From Blattabacterium cuenoti (GTDB lineage Bacteria > Bacteroidota > Bacteroidia > Flavobacteriales > Blattabacteriaceae), in contig NZ_CP059214.1 of assembly GCF_014252275.1 (NCBI RefSeq), forward strand, positions 1,906-65,905: 64,000 nt of DNA. Reading direction: 5' to 3'. The notes under the pieces were generated by a model. It did no database searches. It had not been told where the DNA came from and saw only the letters and a program-made list of their open reading frames with translations. Shown here piece by piece: positions 25,257 to 25,616 of this stretch; within the stretch, counting starts at the first letter, position 1, and each line of letters opens with the position of its first letter. A program made the position numbers and the translations under genes.

Positions 25257-25616
25257 ATGACTGTTTCGCATCTTAAAAAAAAAGATCAATTAATTTTAAT
25301 TGCACATATTGATCAATCTATCGTAATTCAACATTTAGAAAGAATAAAAATATCAACAAAATTTTTCATTGATCCTCATTATTTTTTCTTTTTAAAAAAA
25401 GTTTTTATCAATACATTATGTGTTATGCATATTGATAATAAAAATCAAATTCAAGTTATAGTAATAAACGTTTATTCTAAAAAAATTATTATCAATCCTT
25501 TTGATCAATTAGTAATCATAGATTGTAGAATTCCTAAAAAAATTAAATGTAAAGAAAGTTCTCTATTGAGTCATAGTAAAAGAGGGAACCATTGCTTTGG
25601 AAGTACTGGAATATGA
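25257..25616 (+). CDS. dut: Decayed dUTPase-like protein
   Basis: A 119-aa protein, shorter than the usual 140-150 aa of trimeric dUTPases. The C-terminal arm SKRGNHCFGSTGI matches motif V (RGxGGFGSTG), and the segment from CVMHIDNKNQIQVIVIN to INPFDQLVIID aligns with motifs III and IV. In motif III the catalytic aspartate of the usual G-[VI]-I-D-x-D-Y is replaced (V-M-H-I-D-N), and the PRSGLA motif II is not recognisable. Position between flippase and nucleotidyltransferase matches dut in Flavobacteria. It is probably inactive or repurposed, although the frame is open. Confidence 0.7.
   Translation: MTVSHLKKKDQLILIAHIDQSIVIQHLERIKISTKFFIDPHYFFFLKKVFINTLCVMHIDNKNQIQVIVINVYSKKIIINPFDQLVIIDCRIPKKIKCKESSLLSHSKRGNHCFGSTGI

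Follow-up and report, generated by a model that had tools for sequence, protein, structure and literature searches.

The window analyzed here (a 64,000-nucleotide stretch of the chromosome of the cockroach endosymbiont Blattabacterium cuenoti) contains a dUTPase-like gene, which we call dutC, whose product has the strand framework of the enzyme and an intact motif V and is without motifs I to IV. A second dut, borne by small plasmids of the genus, encodes motifs I to IV and stops short of motif V. Both genes are conserved, and their motifs are complementary. We consider it likely that dutC and the plasmid dut are the two halves of one split enzyme, a trimeric dUTPase that is heteromeric. It also seems reasonably likely that this is a natural obligate heterotrimeric dUTPase encoded across two replicons, which would make the plasmid indispensable and, together with the plasmid-borne nrdB, account for its retention in an endosymbiont whose genome is strongly reduced.

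The dutC frame (25257..25616, + strand) opens with ATG and encodes 119 amino acids and a stop codon, with no internal stops. The profile PF00692 scored 19.2 bits against the window protein, below the gathering cut-off of 22, and covered profile positions 58-129 only; TIGR00576 gave 27.6 bits, below its NCBIfam cut-off of 102.55, and the NCBIfam dut models matched at the motif V end only. Taken alone, the window's dutC does not qualify as a dUTPase. Motif I (SAGxD; SAGMD) is missing, as it is in the orthologs, and an FFLKKxF-like sequence stands in the place of the motif II RPRSGLA. Motif III (GTIDADYRGE) is lost, with His58 (codon 25428..25430, +) aligned with the catalytic Asp and Asn61 at the position of the selectivity Tyr. 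Motif IV (GDRIAQ) is also lost, the window protein reading PFDQLVI. Motif V (RGxxGFGSTG), the P-loop-like C-terminal arm, is kept as RGNHCFGSTG (residues 109-118; 25581..25610, +). The protein is short compared to the dUTPases of most free-living relatives (119 aa versus 143-153 aa). An earlier note on this DNA was therefore right in reading an open dUTPase-derived frame, about 25 residues short, in which motif V is kept and the motif III catalytic Asp and the PRSGLA motif II are gone. Its claim that the motif III/IV scaffold remains holds for the strand framework but not for motif IV itself, which is gone along with motif I.

Is this frame a true descendant of dut or a stray domain? The upstream neighbor in the window is a polysaccharide flippase gene (PF01943; 23744..25249, +), and the downstream neighbor encodes a sugar nucleotidyltransferase of the NTP_transferase family (PF00483; 25647..26681, +). 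In a free-living Flavobacteriales locus (L128), genes for a flippase and a nucleotidyltransferase flank a complete dut in the same order and on the same strand. This shared order indicates that the window ORF is the positional ortholog of dut. Structure prediction, one of the checks that the earlier note had proposed, also placed the fold closest to dUTPases. The AlphaFold2 model had a mean pLDDT of 82 and a beta fold, with the motif V arm at low confidence; the alignment behind the model contained canonical dUTPases, which may bias it. All 50 of the 50 Foldseek matches listed were dUTPases, and the best PDB matches, also dUTPases, superposed with Z scores of 8-9 over ∼80 residues at an rmsd of ∼2 Å. 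The model thus predicts a beta jelly-roll fold for dutC.

We then asked how dutC fares across the genus, using the genome of the window (G000, 561 kb) and 48 Blattabacterium congeners. An ortholog was found in all 49 genomes, with TTG, GTG, or ATG as the start codon, and the frame was open in 45. Motifs I to III were missing in every ortholog read, and the motif losses of dutC are genus-wide, none being particular to G000. Recent decay in the window's strain was accordingly considered and rejected. Mean motif identities of the orthologs to canonical dut were 0.01 (I), 0.06 (II), 0.07 (III), 0.24 (IV), and 0.71 (V). Seven columns were invariant in a 36-sequence alignment, and the same seven in 44 sequences (N71, I79, R109, F114, G115, S116, and G118); five of them (R109, F114, G115, S116, and G118) are motif V residues. 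Entropy averaged 0.81 bits over residues 104-119 versus 1.48 bits elsewhere (p=0.003). Measured between the invariant Asn and the final Gly of motif V, the arm spans 48 residues in 28 of 28 canonical duts; it spans 48 residues in 33 dutC orthologs and 49-51 in 12. A scan of the genome collection returned mostly canonical dUTPases, with two named Blattabacterium chromosomes among the matches.

The dN/dS comparison across Blattabacterium strains, another check proposed earlier, gave values well below 1 for the closest pairs. These pairwise Nei-Gojobori values were mostly 0.26-0.48 for dutC, compared to 0.15-0.26 for the downstream nucleotidyltransferase. As judged from these substitution patterns, dutC is under purifying selection that is somewhat relaxed. 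Over the same nine genomes, mean identity was 56% for dutC versus 72% for the plasmid dut, so that dutC evolves faster.

The search for a second dut, likewise proposed in the earlier note, succeeded. PF00692 detected one with motifs I to IV in 12 of the 49 Blattabacterium genomes, located on a small second contig (3.1-4.1 kb) in nine and on the main contig, near 139-140 kb, in three. In PLSDB, 13 named Blattabacterium plasmids carry dut, annotated as dUTP diphosphatase. In the proteins read, motif I is SSGMD or AAGID, motif II is RPRSGLA or RSRSGLA, motif III is NNPGTIDSDYRGE or NDPGTIDSDYRGE, and motif IV is also intact. These proteins run on for 2-12 residues past a conserved Trp and end at the point where the motif V arm should begin. 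No motif V was found downstream of the plasmid dut in any frame, and a motif V hidden behind a frameshift was rejected on this account. On the circular contig of L050, the full-length protein is 130 aa. NCBIfam NF001862 scored 165 bits against the plasmid dut, above its cut-off, over positions 10-133 of 150, whereas the dCTP deaminase profile scored 38.7 bits, below its cut-off. In a phylogenetic tree of the plasmid duts and sampled Flavobacteriales duts, the plasmid copies grouped as a single clade (100/99) placed next to the others (92/85). Among 148 sampled Flavobacteriales genomes, the intact single-copy duts from outside Blattabacterium all had profile matches that reached position 128-129 and took in motif V; a gene split by a frame break in G074 and a weak second match in G157 departed from this pattern. 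The split dut is restricted to Blattabacterium among the sampled Flavobacteriales.

Several observations concern the plasmids themselves. The dut and nrdB genes of L057, L058, and L059 (G034, G064, and G005) lie inside the chromosome contig, near 139-142 kb, an arrangement that looks like plasmid integration. On annotated Blattabacterium plasmids, genes for VRR-NUC and DUF1599 proteins adjoin dut. The Dut of L048 (NC_017925, from the Blaberus giganteus symbiont) is identical to that of the Cryptocercus punctulatus and C. clevelandi symbiont plasmids; NC_017925 may be a contaminant or mislabelled, the hosts being of different families. Plasmid dut and nrdB have been listed previously (PMC6039017), in passages that do not remark on motifs.

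Does the window's strain carry the plasmid? A profile search of the contigs of G000 found no second dut beyond dutC, and there was no plasmid contig in its assembly. The second dut and nrdB occur in the same 12 genomes, and nrdB was not found in G000 or in the other genomes without a second dut. The partner gene nrdA is chromosomal in 41 of the 49 genomes, G000 included. Because G000 has a chromosomal nrdA without nrdB, its plasmid likely just went unassembled, and the window's strain presumably carries it. Two loci from genomes without an nrdA match contain runs of N, and the absence of nrdA in some genomes may reflect masked stretches. Where both genes were found in plasmid-bearing genomes, nrdA was on the chromosome and nrdB on the plasmid (L048-L056, L113-L115). 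In G004, nrdA (L143, G004:C1:346500-352500) lies in an exact tandem duplication with a period of 2,001 bp, and the nrdA matches of G011 and G024 show the same 2,001-bp spacing with equal scores; the doubling could be either a real duplication or an assembly artefact.

How could two incomplete proteins make one enzyme? Each active site of a trimeric dUTPase is built from motifs I, II, and IV of one subunit, motif III of a neighbor, and usually motif V of the third (PMC12524310). Deletion of motif V cuts kcat ∼720-fold, and engineered asymmetric human trimers from which one arm has been removed still turn over at their other sites, which are independent (PMC4827122). The Blattabacterium ancestor would have had two dut copies, duplicated or acquired, one at the ancestral site in the chromosome and the other carried by a small plasmid. 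The plasmid copy would then have lost its C-terminal arm, including motif V, and the chromosomal copy its N-terminal strand and motifs I to IV, retaining the arm. Because each site draws motifs from three subunits, a trimer of two plasmid subunits (P) and one chromosomal subunit (C) would have exactly one complete active site, with motifs I, II, and IV from P1, III from P2, and V from C, whereas P3, C3, and PC2 trimers would have none. We infer that the products of dutC and the plasmid dut assemble physically, that they do so in the P2C stoichiometry, and that the assembly is catalytically active.

One potential alternative is that the dutC product, though folded like a dUTPase, is not catalytic and serves a role of its own, such as nucleotide sensing or regulation, and that the plasmid dut works alone, slowly and without an arm. 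Arm-less members of the superfamily, the dCTP deaminase-dUTPases, do hydrolyze dUTP, less efficiently (PMC4827122), so the plasmid dut might suffice alone. In addition, regulatory functions have been described for some dUTPases (PMC12524310), and His58 occupies the former catalytic position in 95% of the dutC orthologs (44-sequence alignment). We nevertheless regard an independent role as unlikely, since it predicts neither the match of motifs nor the loss of motif V from the plasmid dut in every lineage seen. The sole motif that dutC retains is the one that the plasmid dut lacks, its core is invariant, and the length of its arm is preserved. The earlier note had suggested that the gene might be kept for another role; this came close to the data, but it missed the plasmid partner that probably gives the gene its meaning.

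Could dutC instead be a slowly decaying relic, left with residual conservation after the plasmid dut took over? Its mean identity to dUTPases is 26%, the protein is short, and 4 of the 49 copies are frame-disrupted (G002, G060, G066, and G071), mostly near poly(A) runs. Three of these copies carry one frameshift each, located within or next to a loop between strands that is rich in poly(A), and that of G071 carries at least two lesions. The single poly(A)-loop frameshifts could reflect slippage or sequencing error; in other endosymbionts of insects, RNA polymerase is known to slip at poly(A). In all four disrupted copies, an open frame of 66-92 codons still encodes an intact motif V end. Two of the genomes, G060 and G071, demonstrably also carry the arm-less plasmid dut, and the disrupted copies speak against dutC being strictly necessary everywhere. 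However, a relic would have had to stay open in 45 of 49 genomes despite a strong AT bias, with close-pair dN/dS values of 0.26-0.48 and with no variation at seven columns, five of which belong to motif V. Moreover, a simple takeover by the plasmid is impossible if every plasmid dut seen is without motif V. We find slow decay still less probable than an independent role, and the suggestion that the gene is on its way to becoming a pseudogene is not supported by its presence in every genome and its invariant motif V residues.

An artefact, in which the plasmid motif V was lost by misassembly or dutC was mis-framed, is extremely improbable: small-plasmid assemblies can be wrong and the Blaberus giganteus plasmid record looks suspicious, but the same truncation occurs in plasmids from a wide range of hosts as well as in the three copies that lie in the chromosome, inside single long contigs, and dutC was read in 49 assemblies.

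A dUTPase divided between dutC and the plasmid dut would act in cells where dUTP should matter. Loss of dut is lethal in Escherichia coli and is rescued by loss of ung (PMC5519681). ThyA is present in all 49 Blattabacterium genomes, and the search for ung, also proposed earlier, found uracil-DNA glycosylase (UDG) in 37 of the 49, G000 included. Because ThyA and UDG are kept, control of dUTP should matter, and uncontrolled dUTP should be harmful where UDG is present. In a sizeable minority of the genomes UDG looks fragmented or absent: it seems fragmented in G008, G012, G013, G015, G025, G026, G028, and G068, and there was no match in G060, G004, G007, G027, and others, some of which may be explained by masked stretches. 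No dCTP deaminase (TIGR02274) scored above the cut-off in the Blattabacterium genomes, and the weak matches in the genus were, with a single exception, the plasmid dut itself. One relative has a ComEB-like dCMP deaminase gene, so the supply of dUMP need not rest on dUTPase. The earlier note had proposed that loss of dUTPase would raise uracil incorporation; such a rise is unlikely for the genus, in which the plasmid dut has motifs I to IV and UDG and ThyA are kept.

If the division is real, it offers a clean natural example of how a homo-oligomeric enzyme can become an obligate heteromer when two paralogs degenerate in complementary ways, one in which the division follows the inter-subunit make-up of the dUTPase active site. 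It would also give a testable reason why a 3-4 kb plasmid is retained in a Blattabacterium genome of ∼600 kb. Since the plasmid holds nrdB, whose partner nrdA is chromosomal, and the catalytic body of dUTPase, two enzymes of the dNTP pool would be split between replicons. For annotation, the plasmid dut should not be labeled a complete dUTP diphosphatase, nor should dutC be dismissed as a pseudogene. In the searchable, non-subscription literature, we came across no natural heteromeric dUTPase encoded by two genes and no paper treating Blattabacterium together with dUTPase.

The closest known system is the homotrimeric dUTPase (Dut; PF00692 / TIGR00576), with which dutC shares the predicted fold, the ancestral locus, and motif V. 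In homotrimeric Dut all motifs reside in one product, whereas in Blattabacterium the five motifs are divided over two genes and two replicons. The plasmid dut is set apart from dCTP deaminase and DCD-DUT by its motifs and scores (165 versus 38.7 bits), which are those of a dUTPase, and by its coexistence within one cell with a paralog that bears motif V. The monomeric dUTPases of herpesviruses are similar in having a duplicated domain, complementary loss of motifs, and a single active site (PMC12524310). Their copies, however, are fused in one chain, whereas those of Blattabacterium are separate proteins, divided as motifs I-IV versus V, in what would be a trimer. A trimer of non-identical subunits, as we propose here, is also found in the pseudo-heterotrimeric dUTPase of Drosophila virilis and in covalent human hybrids, one of which was engineered with one subunit lacking the motif V arm (PMC4827122, PMC12524310). 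The repeats of the Drosophila virilis enzyme each keep all five motifs, unlike the Blattabacterium halves, and compared to the engineered human hybrid, the division in Blattabacterium would be both natural and complete.
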